Positions 34,608 to 41,749 of a stretch of 41,749 bases of DNA are shown one piece after another (the first letter of the stretch is position 1; every line of letters starts with the position of its first letter). The position numbers were made by a program, and so were the translations under genes. Source of the DNA: Actinomycetes bacterium (GTDB lineage: Bacteria; Actinomycetota; Acidimicrobiia; Acidimicrobiales; Bog-793); contig JAJZMK010000029.1 of assembly GCA_021798275.1 (NCBI GenBank), positions 1 through 41,749 of the forward strand. The letters are read 5' to 3'. The notes beneath the pieces were generated by a model. It was not told the origin of the DNA. It did not search any database and saw only the letters and a program-made list of their open reading frames with translations.

Positions 34608-36983
34608 TTATATGTATTGAGAAATAATGTCTAGCATAACATCCGCATGAGCTTTTTGACTGTAATTAGTGTGCATAAACTCTCGTCCAGAGTTTCCAAT
34701 ATCTTGTCGCAGTGATTCAGATTTTGCTAATTCCCGTATCCATGCTACGGCATCGTCAAGATCAGGTTCGGCCCAGTAGGTAGGCTTATTCTTAGGTGCA
34801 TGCAGCTCGGCATACCAGGGAGTTGGGTTTAGATAAAAATCACCGGGCTGAATTTTTACTAACTCATACCCTACCGGGCAGCCTGTTGAGTTGTTCAAAA
34901 AGTCTGTATTGCCTGAATACGCGGTACCGATTACAGGTTTACCGAGGTACATAGATTCGGCCATGCCTAGTCCAAATCCTTCAGATCTATGTAAAGATAT
35001 ATATATATCGGCAAGTGAAAGGAGGGAACCCATTTCGGTTGGGGAAATATGTTCCTCAATTAAGATGCCATTAATAGATGCAAGTTTTTGTTTAATTATC
35101 TTGCGTGCTTCAGGAAATTTATATAAATGACTTGCTTTTACCACTAATACAGAATCAGTTATTTGATTTGGCATTGCTTTAATATAAGCATCGATGCCTC
35201 CTATGGGATTTTTTCTTCTAAATGGTGAGTTAGCATCAAAAGAAATAAGGTAGACAAGAGTATCTTCGGGAATATTCAATACTTGTTTTGAAGTTGATAA
35301 ATCAGTAGCTACTTCTACTATAGGTGGCACAACATGAACTGGGAAGGGCAAGATATTATTAAATATATTCTTTACAAAATTACTACCTACTAAAATCGCA
35401 TCCGGTCTCAAGTCGTTAGCTAGTTTAATTAAATGATCAGGCATTAGGGGTAATTCCCACCACCACGATGCCAGAAGCCTATTATTTTTTCTCTGCTCGT
35501 AAAGAAATGATTTATCAAGTACAGAGCACTCACTGATATTTAAATAACATATATTGAAAGGAAATATGGCGCCATATCGAAGACTTTTTAGCTCAGGAGA
35601 CAAGTGGTCTTCATCAGTGGGAGCATGTAGATCATGGTCAGCTATAGATATTTCTATACCGGAATCATAAAGTGCTTTAATGGAGCGTCTGGCTGCCTCT
35701 GCTATACCGGTGCTTGTTGCAAGTGCGGTTATAGCCGTCACTCCTACGGCGCTTTTGGGTTTTACAAGACCGCTATCGTGCAATACTGTAGATTGTGATT
35801 GCATGATAGTAGACCTGATGCGAGAGAGTATTCTAGATGAAATATAATCAATATCAAGTTCTGTCTCTGCCCATTTTTGAGCTGCTAGCGATGCTTTTAT
35901 TATTCTAGTTGTATCATTTGCTGCCCCAAGCATTCTGGATGCAAGGTGTTCTGGAAGATCAGAGGTATTTTCTATTGGCCAGCAAAACTCATTTGGATAT
36001 TCAAGCCATTGTGGCAATGGTGAAATAATAGCCGGTTTTCCAAAGTAAAATCCTCGTAGTAAAGTTGCACTTGTTTCACCCATAGTCGGCCAACGTAGTA
36101 GTATTTGTACGTCACACAAAGATATATAGTGATCAAGCTCTTCAAATGAGAGATTTGTGTGGAACTCGATGTCGTCTCTAACATAGTCATCAAGATCTGA
36201 AACAGTCTTTTGTAGAGATTCCATGACGGAGGTGTCATCAACCCTGCCAGCTATCATAAGTTTCATATTTTGGTTTTTCTCGCGAGCTTTAATAAATGCC
36301 TTCAGGGTTTCGGGGATCTTTTTATGCTTTGAAATTCCTCCAAATACGCCAAAAATAATTTTCTCGCCGCTATTCTTTCGCCGGTGTAAGGTATTTTGAT
36401 TGAGCGACATACCGTAGTTAATTTTTTCAGCCTCAATACTATATCTGATTTTAATAAATTGGCATCCATACTCAGAATTGACAAATACAGCATTGCTAGC
36501 ATTAAGAATTCTACGAAGCACCGGGTAATCAAGCCTATTTATTGTCTGTGGATCTTTCATACTTTCCAATAAATGAGGCAAATTTTTTAATTGTGGGTTA
36601 TCAAAAATAAGTTCTTCCAAAAAGATATCACTGTTGATTGTCCCGCATAATACCGCATGGAAGTCAAACAGGGATAAATCATGAATGACGACCGTACCTC
36701 CGTATGTCAGCAGCGGTTTGTACATGTAGCCGTGAAAGCCAAAGTGATTTCCAAATTGGAAGATGTTGGTGCTAAATTTTTCTATAGAGTACTCTGAAGC
36801 CTTGATCATGTCCACCCCAGAAGGTGGCTTGCAACGGCGATAGTATTGATCATCGACAACCGCCGCGACAGCACATTTTTTATTGAGGCTGGCTAATAAT
36901 TCAAAACTGTAATCGGAAATTCCACTCCCCAAAGGTGGAAGGGGTGTCCAAAAGGCTATCGGTTTTCCGAAGTCACTAAGCAA
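34608..36983 (-). CDS. Tandem (dual-domain) GT4-family glycosyltransferase
   Basis: N-terminal GT: TPLPPLGSGISDYSFELL...PTMGETSATLLRGFYFGKPAI; C-terminal GT: SLHRSEGFGLGMAESMYLGKPVIGTAYSGNTDFL. Confidence 0.9.
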   Translation of the reverse strand: MLSDFGKPIAFWTPLPPLGSGISDYSFELLASLNKKCAVAAVVDDQYYRRCKPPSGVDMIKASEYSIEKFSTNIFQFGNHFGFHGYMYKPLLTYGGTVVIHDLSLFDFHAVLCGTINSDIFLEELIFDNPQLKNLPHLLESMKDPQTINRLDYPVLRRILNASNAVFVNSEYGCQFIKIRYSIEAEKINYGMSLNQNTLHRRKNSGEKIIFGVFGGISKHKKIPETLKAFIKAREKNQNMKLMIAGRVDDTSVMESLQKTVSDLDDYVRDDIEFHTNLSFEELDHYISLCDVQILLRWPTMGETSATLLRGFYFGKPAIISPLPQWLEYPNEFCWPIENTSDLPEHLASRMLGAANDTTRIIKASLAAQKWAETELDIDYISSRILSRIRSTIMQSQSTVLHDSGLVKPKSAVGVTAITALATSTGIAEAARRSIKALYDSGIEISIADHDLHAPTDEDHLSPELKSLRYGAIFPFNICYLNISECSVLDKSFLYEQRKNNRLLASWWWELPLMPDHLIKLANDLRPDAILVGSNFVKNIFNNILPFPVHVVPPIVEVATDLSTSKQVLNIPEDTLVYLISFDANSPFRRKNPIGGIDAYIKAMPNQITDSVLVVKASHLYKFPEARKIIKQKLASINGILIEEHISPTEMGSLLSLADIYISLHRSEGFGLGMAESMYLGKPVIGTAYSGNTDFLNNSTGCPVGYELVKIQPGDFYLNPTPWYAELHAPKNKPTYWAEPDLDDAVAWIRELAKSESLRQDIGNSGREFMHTNYSQKAHADVMLDIISQYI

Positions 36984-38568
36984 TCTTTTTTCCTATAATG
37001 GAGTAGTCGGGAGCTGATATAAACATATTGTGCAATTCTTTGGCCAGTAGAGTTAATTTTGGATCAACGTTTTGGCCTTCTAGGATGGATTGAATTCCAT
37101 CTAGATACAAATAACCATCCCTATCATGTCTTATGATATCAACCCCTATAAATCCTCGTGCAGATACCAGGAATTCTAATAATCTTGGTGGGAGAGGCTT
37201 TATATGTGTTGGATCGAGATAGAAATTGCAACTTCCGATGATAATATTTTCAGGGTTAGGCGTCTCAATTATCAAGATGCCACCCGGTGCTAGCGCAGCC
37301 AGAGATCTGTCAATTAGTTCTATTTGTGTCTCAAGGCTTAGATGTTCGATGATATGAATTGCCGTTACCGCCCCGAGAGAACCTGGTCTGACTGATCTTA
37401 GGTGACTAATAGCATCTTCCAGCTGTGCCTCTAAACCTTTTTTGAGGCACTTATCAATATTGTCCTCGAGTGTATCTACCCCGTAAGAGGCTATTTTTTC
37501 TTCCTGGAGGAGCTCTAAGAATTCTCCCCGTCCACAGCCGATGTCAACTACCGGTCCAAGATGCGATATTTCTTTTAAGATGGGGATATAGTCACTTAAT
37601 AATAATTTGATGTTTGCTTCGCTTCCCCGAAACGTATCCTCCAATGCGGAATAAAGTCCTTCAAATGAGGAGGGTAATGCGGCTAAAGATTCTGCCTTTG
37701 GCGGAGCAGGAAAAGATTTTTTGACTTCATTTAAGAAAAGATCTACTTGAGCAAGACGTGGCCAAACAGATTTAACTTCCTTTGAAAGAGAGTATTTTGT
37801 ATCAGAAAGTTCCTTTGCAAGAGAGTATTTTGTATCAGAAAGTTCCTTTGCAAGAGAGTATTTTGTATCAGAAAGTTCTTTACTTATCCTGGATTCAATC
37901 TCTTCTATGTATGAGGAGGTATCAGTAAACTTGGTCTCGAATAATCTGTCCTGGTCTTGTAGCTGCCTGGCATGATTATTGATTGTCTCTTGTATCGGGC
38001 CAAGGACTTCATATAGCCTTGTAAAAGATTGCTGCTGAACCAATTCGATCAGCGTGCTGAGCCTTCCGAATGAGTTTGATATTTCCGCAATCTCAGATAT
38101 ATATTTCTCATGGTCTTCTAAGGTGATATCTTGGCGTGTGCATACTTCGTCGTGATGTATCAATGTGGCATCATGGCTTTGAAGACTTTTTTCATGGCGT
38201 TCCAGCACGCTGTCATGGCGCTCCAAGACTTCCAAGTGGTGAGCTAGAACCTGTTCGTTATGATGAATAAATCCATCATGCCTAGTCAATGTCTGCTCAA
38301 AACGTTCCAGAACGGATGTATGGTGTGTCAGAGAAAATTGGATCTGGCCGAGAGTTTCCGTGATGGCAGTAAGCGTATTTTTTAGCTCCGTGTCGTTTTG
38401 CGACAACTTTGATATATCGGCGACTAGCAAGTTGTTGAGTTTTACTTGATGTGCCAAAAAGGGCCAGGTAAGTCTGGCAACTATTTTTTTGATGAATCTA
38501 AGCTTACTCCCGCGAGGTACGGGTAGACCAAGGTTTATATCTTCCAATAATGCTTGAGTAATAGCCAC
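36976..38568 (-). CDS. Coiled-coil protein with C-terminal SAM methyltransferase (O-antigen chain-terminator-like)
   Basis: VVDIGCGRGEFLELL, AIHIIEHLSLE, IIETPNPENIIIGSCNFYLDPTHIKPLPPRLLEFL; N-terminal heptad/hendecad repeats. Confidence 0.88.
   Translation of the reverse strand: MAITQALLEDINLGLPVPRGSKLRFIKKIVARLTWPFLAHQVKLNNLLVADISKLSQNDTELKNTLTAITETLGQIQFSLTHHTSVLERFEQTLTRHDGFIHHNEQVLAHHLEVLERHDSVLERHEKSLQSHDATLIHHDEVCTRQDITLEDHEKYISEIAEISNSFGRLSTLIELVQQQSFTRLYEVLGPIQETINNHARQLQDQDRLFETKFTDTSSYIEEIESRISKELSDTKYSLAKELSDTKYSLAKELSDTKYSLSKEVKSVWPRLAQVDLFLNEVKKSFPAPPKAESLAALPSSFEGLYSALEDTFRGSEANIKLLLSDYIPILKEISHLGPVVDIGCGRGEFLELLQEEKIASYGVDTLEDNIDKCLKKGLEAQLEDAISHLRSVRPGSLGAVTAIHIIEHLSLETQIELIDRSLAALAPGGILIIETPNPENIIIGSCNFYLDPTHIKPLPPRLLEFLVSARGFIGVDIIRHDRDGYLYLDGIQSILEGQNVDPKLTLLAKELHNMFISAPDYSIIGKKIA
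37787..37885 (-). repeat. 33-bp tandem repeat (2 full + 1 diverging copy) inside coiled-coil methyltransferase
   Basis: AGAGAGTATTTTGTATCAGAAAGTTCCTTTGCA at 37787-37819 and 37820-37852, third copy diverging at its end; encodes KELSDTKYSLA x3. Confidence 0.95.
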
Positions 38569-38739
38569 GGCTGTTTATCCCTTTTGTTAAAAATCTTTAT
38601 TACCTGATAAATATATACCTATAAAGATAAAGCCACTTTAGAAAAGTATTTTATATAGCAATTTGTTTTTGCACTAGGAAACATTACCTCAGCTTACGTA
38701 TGGTTAGAACGGTGATCCAACTAACAATATAAATATATT

Positions 38740-41700
38740 TTATTTGTATGCGATAACGGCATAATAATCCTGTTCGCTTAAGTCCAAGCGATAATCCCCT
38801 GTACCAGTCGGGAAGAATACTTCGGCTCGTTCAAATCCTGCCGCATAGCATTCGGTGAGCAATACTTCTGGAAATACTGGACGATTTAGTTGAGGATCTG
38901 CCCAGGAATTGATAAAAGACCTTGGTTGATGTGGATTACGGGCTTCAAGTAGAAGAAGATATCCCGATGAAAGCAGGTCATGTATTTTAGTGAGTATTGA
39001 GGTCAGATCTTCTTTTGCCAAGTATTCCACGATATTTGTGGCAGCGATTGAAGACTGTAGGTTGGTTGACAGAGATGCCAAGTAGTCAGATAAATCTGCA
39101 CATGTTACATCCAATCCAAGACTTTGACAGTATTTTACAGCGGTTTGATCCCTATCTACTCCTACGGCATCCACTTTATACTCCCGGAGGAGGCTAAGCA
39201 TCTCCCCTTGCCCACAGCCTAAGTTGATAATGTGATTATAGTTAGCCAGAATTTTTAAATAAGCTGTTTGTCTGGCGATAATCTCACTTTTGCTTCCCTT
39301 TAGAGATTGATAATTCCATAAGGAATTCAGATCTATTTTGTCTGCTTTCTTTGCGTCGCTCAAAGCGGTTGTTGCAGACCGCCCACTTTTCCCAACAGTT
39401 GTTTTGAGTTCTTTATCAATCACTTCCAAGTAAGACTTGGCTGTTTTTAGTAAATTGCGGTCGAACCCCAATGTCGAAAAGCCGTCTATCCCTTTGATGA
39501 AAGCATTTGGCTCCGTAAAGACAGATGACAGAGTACAATTTTTGAGTTGTTGAAGCGCTTCTTCTAATTCATGAATCTGGCGACGGCTTTTGGGTCCGGC
39601 TATCAGTTTTACTTCTTCACCTAAGTACTCGAAATTAGCCTCTAATGCGTCAACCGCATCTCGTAGAGTAAGAATTTCTTTTACGGAGGCATTAAATTTA
39701 TTATCTTGGCTCTGTAGCACCTTCTTTTGTCCGTAAATCAAATCGCGTATTTCTGTAAGTTGGATTTCTAAGTCTTTGATCCTGTTTAGGTTGGACTTGA
39801 CATGTCTGGAATTTTCCGTTACCTGTTGGTCGTCGAAGGTTGTATCTTCGTTTAGGTGGGTTTGTAGGTTGTGGATGCTGTTATGTAGAGAGGAAATTTC
39901 CTGCCCGTACTCGGTGATCAATCTGGCAACGTGTTCTATGCCGGCCGCCATAGCTATGTCCAGTGTCTTCTGCTGTTCATCATGATGGCGTAAAGCTTTA
40001 TATATTATCTTTCTGTATACTTTTGCCAGCTTACCTTTATTACTCCCGGTATTTAGATCCGGGGAGGACTTAGCCATTGCTATTAGCGGAGGATCAGCAG
40101 GCAGCTGTTCGATATTGTTGATCTCATGAATTGACATTTGATTTCCTCTTGATAATAATTGTGCTTGGGCAAAATCAAAGCGTCCTTTTACAAATTGTGC
40201 CCGTGCTTCGATACCGTGAAGCCGCAAAACCTCTTGTTTTGCCAGTTCACCCTTACTTTTTGCCAAATCAGGCTTTTCTACAACATCTCGCATATAAGCG
40301 GCTGCTATTTCTAGATTTGGATCTGCCCAACGCATGGAAGTCGGATAAGGGTCACATCCCGGTTGGATATTGCGGTAATCAAAGGGGACGAGGAATGAGT
40401 TTTCTTGAGTCATGAAGTCCAGATTGCCCGAGTAGCCGGTGGCAATAACCGGTTTTCCGAGCGTCATAGCTTCGGCCATGGTGAGGCCGAACCCTTCCGA
40501 ACGGTGCAATGAGACATAGCAATCGCATGCGTTGATTAGTGAGGCATTTTCTTCAAATGAAAGGTATGAATCAAAAATAATGACATCTTTTCTTTTTGAT
40601 GCCACGTATTTGAGCTTTTCTAGATCTTCTACCTTATGTTGGCCTCCAACGGCTTTAATAACGAGCTTGGGGCCTTCTCCGTCCTTGAAGGCCATAGAGA
40701 ACGCTTCGATCAGACCGAGTGGATTTTTCCTCTCCATGACGCTCATTAGATCAAAACAAAACAGAAACATTGGTTCTGAGCCTATGCCAAGACGTTTCCT
40801 ATCGAATTCTTTGGTGATCACAGGCGCTTTTATCGGAAGAGGGAAGGGGAAAACAAGTCTATCTGTCACCTGCGAGATTGCTTTTTGAGTGAAGGAACTG
40901 TTGGCCCAAATCTCATCTAAATATACGGCAGCCTTGGCGAAGTGTTCGGGGAATTCTTCAAGTTCCCATGCCCAGAGACCGATATTATAGCGGTCTTTAA
41001 AAAATCCGTCGCCTGTCCTTTGATGGAAATAAGGGAGTTGATCGGCGTTGATGCAAATTACATTGACATTTAAATCCGATCTGTCAGGAAAGGAGAAGCT
41101 GTGCTTTTGACGACTGATCATATTATTGTCTATGTATGCGCCTGCCGTGATGCCGGCTTTCTCTATGGTTGATAGCACAAGGCGGGCATGCTCACCGGTA
41201 CCTGTTTCTGCTTGGAAATATCCGGTGACTCTCATGCCGGGTATCAGATCGTTGGGGAGATCTTCTTTGTCAATAGACAAATCTTTTTCTGTGATATTTC
41301 CAGCCAAATGAGCCGAACCTGAGTTCTTCGGATTGTTTTCCAACTCGCTCAAAGCTTCGTGGTCTACCCAAGCGGAGTCACCACCTCTTGCAAGCTCTCT
41401 TGCAGTAAGAGAACCGGGCACCAAACGGTTATCCAAGCGACCCAATGCCGCTTCATGGGCGGCCCATTCAACCAAGCGGTATTGATCGTTTCCAAGGGGA
41501 TCTGGGAAAGCGGCCTGCAGATCCGCTCTGGCTTGGTGAATTGCCAACAGATAGCGGCTCGGATGGGCCCCGTTGTAAAGACGTATTTTTCCAGTATGGC
41601 TGGTATCAAAAGAGAGTTCTTCTGGCGGCTCATTTAGCCACATGATGAATTGATCACCGTTACCGGCAAACGGGCTGATCACGTTTACGACAGAGTCTTC

Positions 41701-41749
41701 CCCATCGTCCCTACCCGTACGTTCAGTCTGATTTTTGGACCGCAATAGA
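38740..41749 (-). CDS. GT4 glycosyltransferase - coiled coil - methyltransferase-like protein (5' end probably beyond window)
   Basis: MRVTGYFQAETGTGEHARLVL...SLHRSEGFGLTMAEAMTLGKPVIATGYSGNLDF; coiled coil; C-terminal IINLGCGQGEMLSLL. Frame is open at 41749; the TTG at 41745 may not be the true start. Confidence 0.88.
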   Translation of the reverse strand, partial: LLRSKNQTERTGRDDGEDSVVNVISPFAGNGDQFIMWLNEPPEELSFDTSHTGKIRLYNGAHPSRYLLAIHQARADLQAAFPDPLGNDQYRLVEWAAHEAALGRLDNRLVPGSLTARELARGGDSAWVDHEALSELENNPKNSGSAHLAGNITEKDLSIDKEDLPNDLIPGMRVTGYFQAETGTGEHARLVLSTIEKAGITAGAYIDNNMISRQKHSFSFPDRSDLNVNVICINADQLPYFHQRTGDGFFKDRYNIGLWAWELEEFPEHFAKAAVYLDEIWANSSFTQKAISQVTDRLVFPFPLPIKAPVITKEFDRKRLGIGSEPMFLFCFDLMSVMERKNPLGLIEAFSMAFKDGEGPKLVIKAVGGQHKVEDLEKLKYVASKRKDVIIFDSYLSFEENASLINACDCYVSLHRSEGFGLTMAEAMTLGKPVIATGYSGNLDFMTQENSFLVPFDYRNIQPGCDPYPTSMRWADPNLEIAAAYMRDVVEKPDLAKSKGELAKQEVLRLHGIEARAQFVKGRFDFAQAQLLSRGNQMSIHEINNIEQLPADPPLIAMAKSSPDLNTGSNKGKLAKVYRKIIYKALRHHDEQQKTLDIAMAAGIEHVARLITEYGQEISSLHNSIHNLQTHLNEDTTFDDQQVTENSRHVKSNLNRIKDLEIQLTEIRDLIYGQKKVLQSQDNKFNASVKEILTLRDAVDALEANFEYLGEEVKLIAGPKSRRQIHELEEALQQLKNCTLSSVFTEPNAFIKGIDGFSTLGFDRNLLKTAKSYLEVIDKELKTTVGKSGRSATTALSDAKKADKIDLNSLWNYQSLKGSKSEIIARQTAYLKILANYNHIINLGCGQGEMLSLLREYKVDAVGVDRDQTAVKYCQSLGLDVTCADLSDYLASLSTNLQSSIAATNIVEYLAKEDLTSILTKIHDLLSSGYLLLLEARNPHQPRSFINSWADPQLNRPVFPEVLLTECYAAGFERAEVFFPTGTGDYRLDLSEQDYYAVIAYK

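Follow-up and report, generated by a model that had tools for sequence, protein, structure and literature searches.

Gene content and genomic setting of the locus

The window, that is, the whole stretch of 41,749 nucleotides analysed here, is contig C26 of a 2.09-Mb draft genome that is 86% complete (G000). A sequence-only reading of this DNA had singled out three same-strand ORFs, and all of them are present on the minus strand, at 34608-36983 (ORF1), 36976-38568 (ORF2), and 38740-41748 (ORF3). Pfam likewise bears out the domain content proposed for them, in that ORF1 matches GT4 in two stretches, ORF2 holds a class I methyltransferase (MT), and ORF3 has a GT4 as well as a methyltransferase domain. 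ORF1 (34608..36983, (-); 791 aa, TTG start) is a dual GT4 glycosyltransferase with two stretches matching PF00534, and it is the probable polymerase partner of ORF2. The 8-nt overlap between the end of ORF2 and the start of ORF1 (36976..36983, (-)), also part of that reading, is present in the sequence and, together with its context GATTGCTT, identical in all three congeneric genomes, and translational coupling of the two genes is likely.

The complete locus is found in the congeners G001 and G002, where an 890-aa GT4, a 372-aa protein, and a GT4-coil-MT protein of ~1,334 aa are followed by a coil-MT protein (529 or 571 aa) and the dual GT4 orthologous to ORF1 (793 aa in G001, 790 aa in G002), with gatAB adjoining. 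In both genomes, a gene for an FMN-binding-domain protein and an ApbE-like gene lie immediately ahead of the glycosyltransferase locus (G001:C34:44625-45955, G002:C12:14135-15441). A membrane-like protein of 617-633 aa is encoded between the dual-GT4 gene and gatB (G001:C34:58279-60132, G002:C12:27737-29638); it is missing from the window, where the gatB end lies 80 nt from ORF1. The coil-MT/dual-GT4 pair is kept across genera of the host family (order Acidimicrobiales). Four loci from other genera of this family (L042, L043, L044, and L045) carry the pair in tandem duplicate, which suggests two caps or two glycans.

ORF3 (38740..41748, (-)) is open at its 5' end, where the contig stops after 1002 aa, and the whole gene would encode ~1,338 aa. 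The missing ~336 N-terminal residues are encoded at G000:C112:1-1005(-), with 81% identity to the G001 orthologue, and are followed on that contig by the next GT4 gene. As the ends of C112 and C26 have 10 nt in common and the match to the orthologue is continuous, the two contigs meet inside ORF3 and the assembly can be joined there. The proposed fusion of GT4, coil, and MT agrees with the Pfam domains and the predicted helices, but the gene in the window is incomplete, its 5' part lying on C112. The GT4 domain spans about residues 170-530 (40159..41241, (-); PF00534, E 1e-15) and is separated from the coil by a basic amphipathic segment, KLAKVYRKIIYKALRHH (residues 572-590; 39979..40035, (-)), which has the highest hydrophobic moment of the protein. 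For the predicted helical or coil region (39379..39978, (-)), AlphaFold2 gives several helices before the MT with moderate confidence, and the coil periodicity is weaker than that of ORF2, being reached by 14 of 300 shuffles.

The methyltransferase of ORF3 (38743..39315, (-)) is probably degenerate, as judged from the alignment of the three congeners. In ORF3, LKG stands for FRG, EY for EH, and DPQL for DPTH, and these positions are changed in both other congeners too, so that the blocks of the 3DLI-type family described below are not intact; the glycine-rich SAM loop is largely retained. With these family-conserved residues lost, the alignment does not support reading this domain as a clearly active cap enzyme; to judge from its sequence, it is probably not the active one and may be a structural copy or act on another substrate. 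The GT4-coil-MT fusion also looks genus-specific, because orthologues outside the genus end before the MT. ORF3 was considered as the main ruler and set aside on account of its degenerate MT, its weaker coil periodicity, and the orthologues without MT outside the genus.

Architecture of ORF2 and tandem repeats in its coil

ORF2 (36976..38568, (-); 530 aa) consists of an N-terminal basic block, a coil, and a C-terminal methyltransferase, and is the proposed inverted terminator and ruler. The sequence-only reading had placed the coil N-terminal to the MT and hence postulated a differently arranged ruler; both Pfam and AlphaFold2 agree with this arrangement. The basic amphipathic block (residues 6-45; 38434..38553, (-)), the proposed membrane and polymerase end, is marked by its conservation and charge. 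Fifteen ORF2 homologues have the consensus GLPVPxGxRxRxxKRLVARLxWPxLRHQVxxN in common, with G14, Q41, and N45 invariant and a net charge of +3 to +7 in every one of them, and the middle part between this block and the methyltransferase varies in both length and sequence. Among cross-phylum homologues, Q41 is found in 28/43 and N45 in 19/43. The amphipathicity of the block is moderate (muH 0.46 in ORF2).

The predicted coiled coil comprises residues 46-290 (37699..38433, (-)). In a monomer run, AlphaFold2 predicted helices at residues 21-145 and 150-285 (coil pLDDT about 54-85), followed by a confidently predicted methyltransferase, and the coil has a hydrophobic periodicity of 3.5-3.6 residues that was reached by 0-2 of 300 shuffles. 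With an MT joined to ~260 predicted helical residues, ORF2 has the architecture of the chain-terminator class, an enzyme attached to a long coiled coil. The class I methyltransferase (residues 301-530; 36979..37668, (-)) is of the FRG...DIGCGRGE...ETPNPEN...FYxDPTH type, and the motif ETPNPEN...CNFYLDPTHIKPLPP reported earlier was located at residues 435-461. Its closest solved relative is 3DLI from Archaeoglobus fulgidus (E 2e-32 by sequence, 4e-21 by fold). ORF2 carries all four blocks of this 3DLI-type (FRG/DPTH) family (FRG, DIGCGRGE, ETPNPEN, and FYxDPTH) as well as the eight residues that are invariant across 43 homologues (R314, G315, D342, E408, E435, N438, D452, and H455). Pfam matches in ORF2 include no kinase domain.

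Tandem DNA repeats, mostly in multiples of 21 or 33 bp, occur within the coil, a new observation made here. In ORF2, TRF identified a 33-bp array of 3.1 copies with 98% match (37777..37878, (-)), encoding the 11-aa unit KELSDTKYSLA. The congeners have other 33-bp arrays at the same coil site, with 7.4 copies in G002 and 2.8 copies in G001. Between congeners, coil residues 201-263 are only 14-17% identical, and this segment is 44 aa (4x11) longer in G002, but no gap is needed to align coil residues 63-200 (63% identity) or MT residues 301-475 (63-70%). Two Microcystis coil-MT proteins with 93% identity differ in length by a single 22-aa gap; for a pair from Fischerella, the difference is 11 aa plus 2 aa. 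Changes in whole 11-aa steps would keep the helical phase and alter the spacing by about 16 Å per unit. Across the order, coil length ranges from 90 to 304 residues.

Strong tandem arrays occur in 18/95 coil-MT genes versus 6/596 neighbouring ORFs (Fisher p 5e-12), and in 16 of these 18 the period is a multiple of 21 or 33 bp, a share expected by chance at ~1e-7 if the null fraction is 0.28 among periods divisible by 3 and shared ancestry is ignored (three arrays are from Microcystis). The contrast was weaker in a coil-matched control (13/53 coil-MT genes vs. 2/35 other coil-like ORFs), and part of the enrichment may therefore be general to coils. We propose that units of 11 aa (or 7 aa) are gained or lost as a whole during evolution, so that coil length changes and, with it, modal chain length. 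Such whole-unit steps fit a ruler under selection, although phase-keeping alone would yield the same in any coil.

The coil-MT family and its link to glycan export

A genome scan with the family alignment returned 519 relatives, from which 80 loci were taken, belonging to Actinomycetota, Proteobacteria, Cyanobacteria, Acidobacteria, and others. A Wzt-like ATPase (>=150 bits) is encoded within 10 kb at 40 of the 47 loci with full 10-kb flanks, 38 of which also have Wzm, and 39/42 scanned Wzt proteins from coil-MT loci contain the carbohydrate-binding Wzt_C domain. The immediately downstream gene encodes a GT4 glycosyltransferase at 48 of 58 loci. Two proteins fuse the modules, namely L075 (Acidimicrobiales), with the order GT4-GT4-coil-MT and encoded beside Wzm/Wzt, and L123 (Marinobacter), with MT-coil-GT4-GT4. 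A multi-domain GT as probable polymerase partner of the terminator is represented by the overlapping dual-GT4 gene, the downstream GT4 genes, and these fusions. At family level, a role of the coil-MT proteins in ABC-transporter-dependent glycan assembly is well supported. To our knowledge, none of the family members found has a known cap, glycan, or activity.

The MT is C-terminal in 69/78 family members and N-terminal in a few, from Massilia, Duganella, and others. Reversed members with an N-terminal MT, a coil, and a basic C-terminal block include L108, L112, L120, L132, L136, and L123. In both polarities, a basic block lies where the coil ends away from the MT, and MT, coil, and basic end thus keep their order whichever way the chain runs.

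The export genes that had been expected near the locus were found neither in G001 and G002, where the 40 kb around the complete loci hold none, nor in the other host-family loci read. Wzm and a single Wzt_C protein are encoded elsewhere in the host genome, unlinked to the window on another contig (C15), and are the proposed exporter of the system. Their locus (G000:C15:3127-15788; L046), conserved in G001:C13, has its own set of GT4 genes (410, 844, and 363 aa) and also holds a lysylphosphatidylglycerol-synthase-like membrane protein. Other families of the order have a coil-MT homologue and Wzt on one contig, e.g. G044, G052, G055, G062, G071, and G077. Co-occurrence of Wzt_C and coil-MT across 98 relatives was also considered as evidence and rejected, since a domain that nearly all of them have (78/98), with or without coil-MT, is uninformative in this respect.

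A proposed inverted terminator and ruler

The characterised coil rulers come from a few O-antigen systems of enterobacteria. In these systems, a coil separates the terminator, which is N-terminal and distal, from a membrane end that recruits the polymerase, and chain length is set by coil length (PMC11231755, PMC3482155, PMC5082667). A carbohydrate-binding Wzt domain accompanies the capped chains (PMC3482155, PMC11231755). The closest comparison is with WbdD/WbdA of the ABC-transporter-dependent O antigens of E. coli O9a and O8 and K. pneumoniae O3 and O5. Like ORF2, WbdD carries an MT on the end of a long coil, and the two systems are further alike in the membrane end (proposed for ORF2) opposite the MT, the multi-domain GT polymerase partner, and a Wzm/Wzt exporter with a carbohydrate-binding domain. 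In contrast to WbdD, which has the order MT(-kinase)-coil-membrane helix, ORF2 has a C-terminal MT without profile-level homology, no kinase, a coil with tandem repeats, and an actinobacterial host. ORF2 does not belong to the WbdD protein family, as no WbdD chain is among the PDB sequence/profile matches (E<=0.001) or the best 50 fold matches of its MT. The analogy to a polymerase with a coiled-coil terminator, as drawn in the sequence-only reading, is supported by the family-level Wzm/Wzt linkage, the downstream GT4 genes, the fusions, and the 11-aa coil steps, but not by homology to WbdD.

Other known proteins resemble parts of the system. K. pneumoniae O7 ORF6 and O12 WbbB combine terminator, coil, and polymerase on a single polypeptide (PMC11231755), and the fusions L123 and L075 likewise unite these three kinds of module. 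The terminator of the K. pneumoniae proteins comes from a different family and is placed N-terminally, whereas polymerase and terminator are encoded by separate overlapping genes in the window. A. fulgidus 3DLI, deposited as a SAM-dependent methyltransferase, belongs to the same MT family as ORF2, but its structure, a chain of 240 residues, covers just the MT domain and includes no coil. In P. syringae, a gene named 'wbdD' and termed a glycosyltransferase is part of a wzm/wzt operon, and disruption within wzm, wzt, or 'wbdD' was reported to give tailocin resistance (PMC12608077). Its position resembles that of the P. viridiflava coil-MT gene directly behind Wzt (L121), a likeness of gene position. 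The open-access literature yielded nothing usable on rulers with a C-terminal MT, repeat-tuned coil length, or the P. aeruginosa CPA genes PA5455-PA5459.

We consider it reasonably probable that ORF2 is a polarity-inverted, WbdD-like chain terminator and ruler, with ORF1 as its partner polymerase. The basic N-terminal block of ORF2 would lie at the membrane and recruit ORF1, and the coil, up to ~39 nm long if fully extended (261 helical residues x 1.485 Å), would space the C-terminal MT away from it. A lipid-linked glycan long enough to reach the MT would be O-methylated at its non-reducing end and stop growing. Wzm/Wzt would then export this capped chain after its recognition by the carbohydrate-binding domain of the single Wzt_C protein. 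ORF3 and the upstream GT4 gene may contribute further transferases. ORF2 would keep the geometry of the characterised rulers with the chain direction reversed and an unrelated MT; the ruler function itself is inferred. A role of the coil-MT protein as a chain-length ruler is moderately supported.

Several other readings of these data have to be weighed. Internal sugars of bacterial glycans are commonly methylated, and the MT might accordingly modify a surface glycan at its internal or branch sugars without terminating it, the coil merely tethering it to membrane-bound GTs and measuring nothing. Although the two methyltransferase domains of the locus and a family without a demonstrated cap would suit such a role, we regard it as unlikely, given that the Wzt encoded beside family members nearly always has the Wzt_C domain that accompanies capped chains in characterised systems, and that whole-unit coil changes in an otherwise almost gap-free protein are not expected of a mere tether. 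These same changes bear on the suggestion, in our view also a rather doubtful one, that the coil is a scaffold gathering several GTs, whose repeats expand and contract neutrally and leave chain length unaffected. Coil sequences diverge fast, coil lengths differ widely across the order, and arrays also occur in the other coil-like ORFs of the control, all as a scaffold would have it; the 7- or 11-residue multiples in 16 of the 18 strong arrays and the whole-unit differences between close relatives point the other way, but as phase alone could explain whole-unit changes in any coil, a scaffold role is thereby only weakened.

It is also conceivable, if quite improbable, that the system in the window does not feed Wzm/Wzt but makes a membrane glycolipid or glycosylates proteins, the unlinked transporter serving another glycan. 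This would agree with the exporter-free surroundings of the G001 and G002 loci and with the separate GT4 set beside Wzm/Wzt on C15. However, the host genome has only the one Wzt_C protein, coil-MT and Wzt share contigs in other families of the order, and the acidimicrobial fusion L075 adjoins Wzm/Wzt.

Should the inverted terminator and ruler proposed for ORF2 be correct, the ruler principle would extend to an unrelated methyltransferase in reverse orientation and to many phyla, including an actinobacterial lineage. A broader and more tentative extension, on which we are somewhat less than evenly confident, is that methyl-cap terminators occur bacteria-wide and are mostly reverse-mounted, and that their ruler resides in slippage-prone 21-bp/33-bp arrays, making glycan length evolvable in steps of ~16-33 Å with the phase kept. 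In Microcystis, a full-length coil-MT copy was found in 6/12 genomes; five of the six copies are the query itself or 92-94% identical to it and have three or two copies of a 66-bp unit. Strains with two or three copies of this 22-aa unit form a natural length series, in which the correspondence between coil length and chain length would be testable without engineering.
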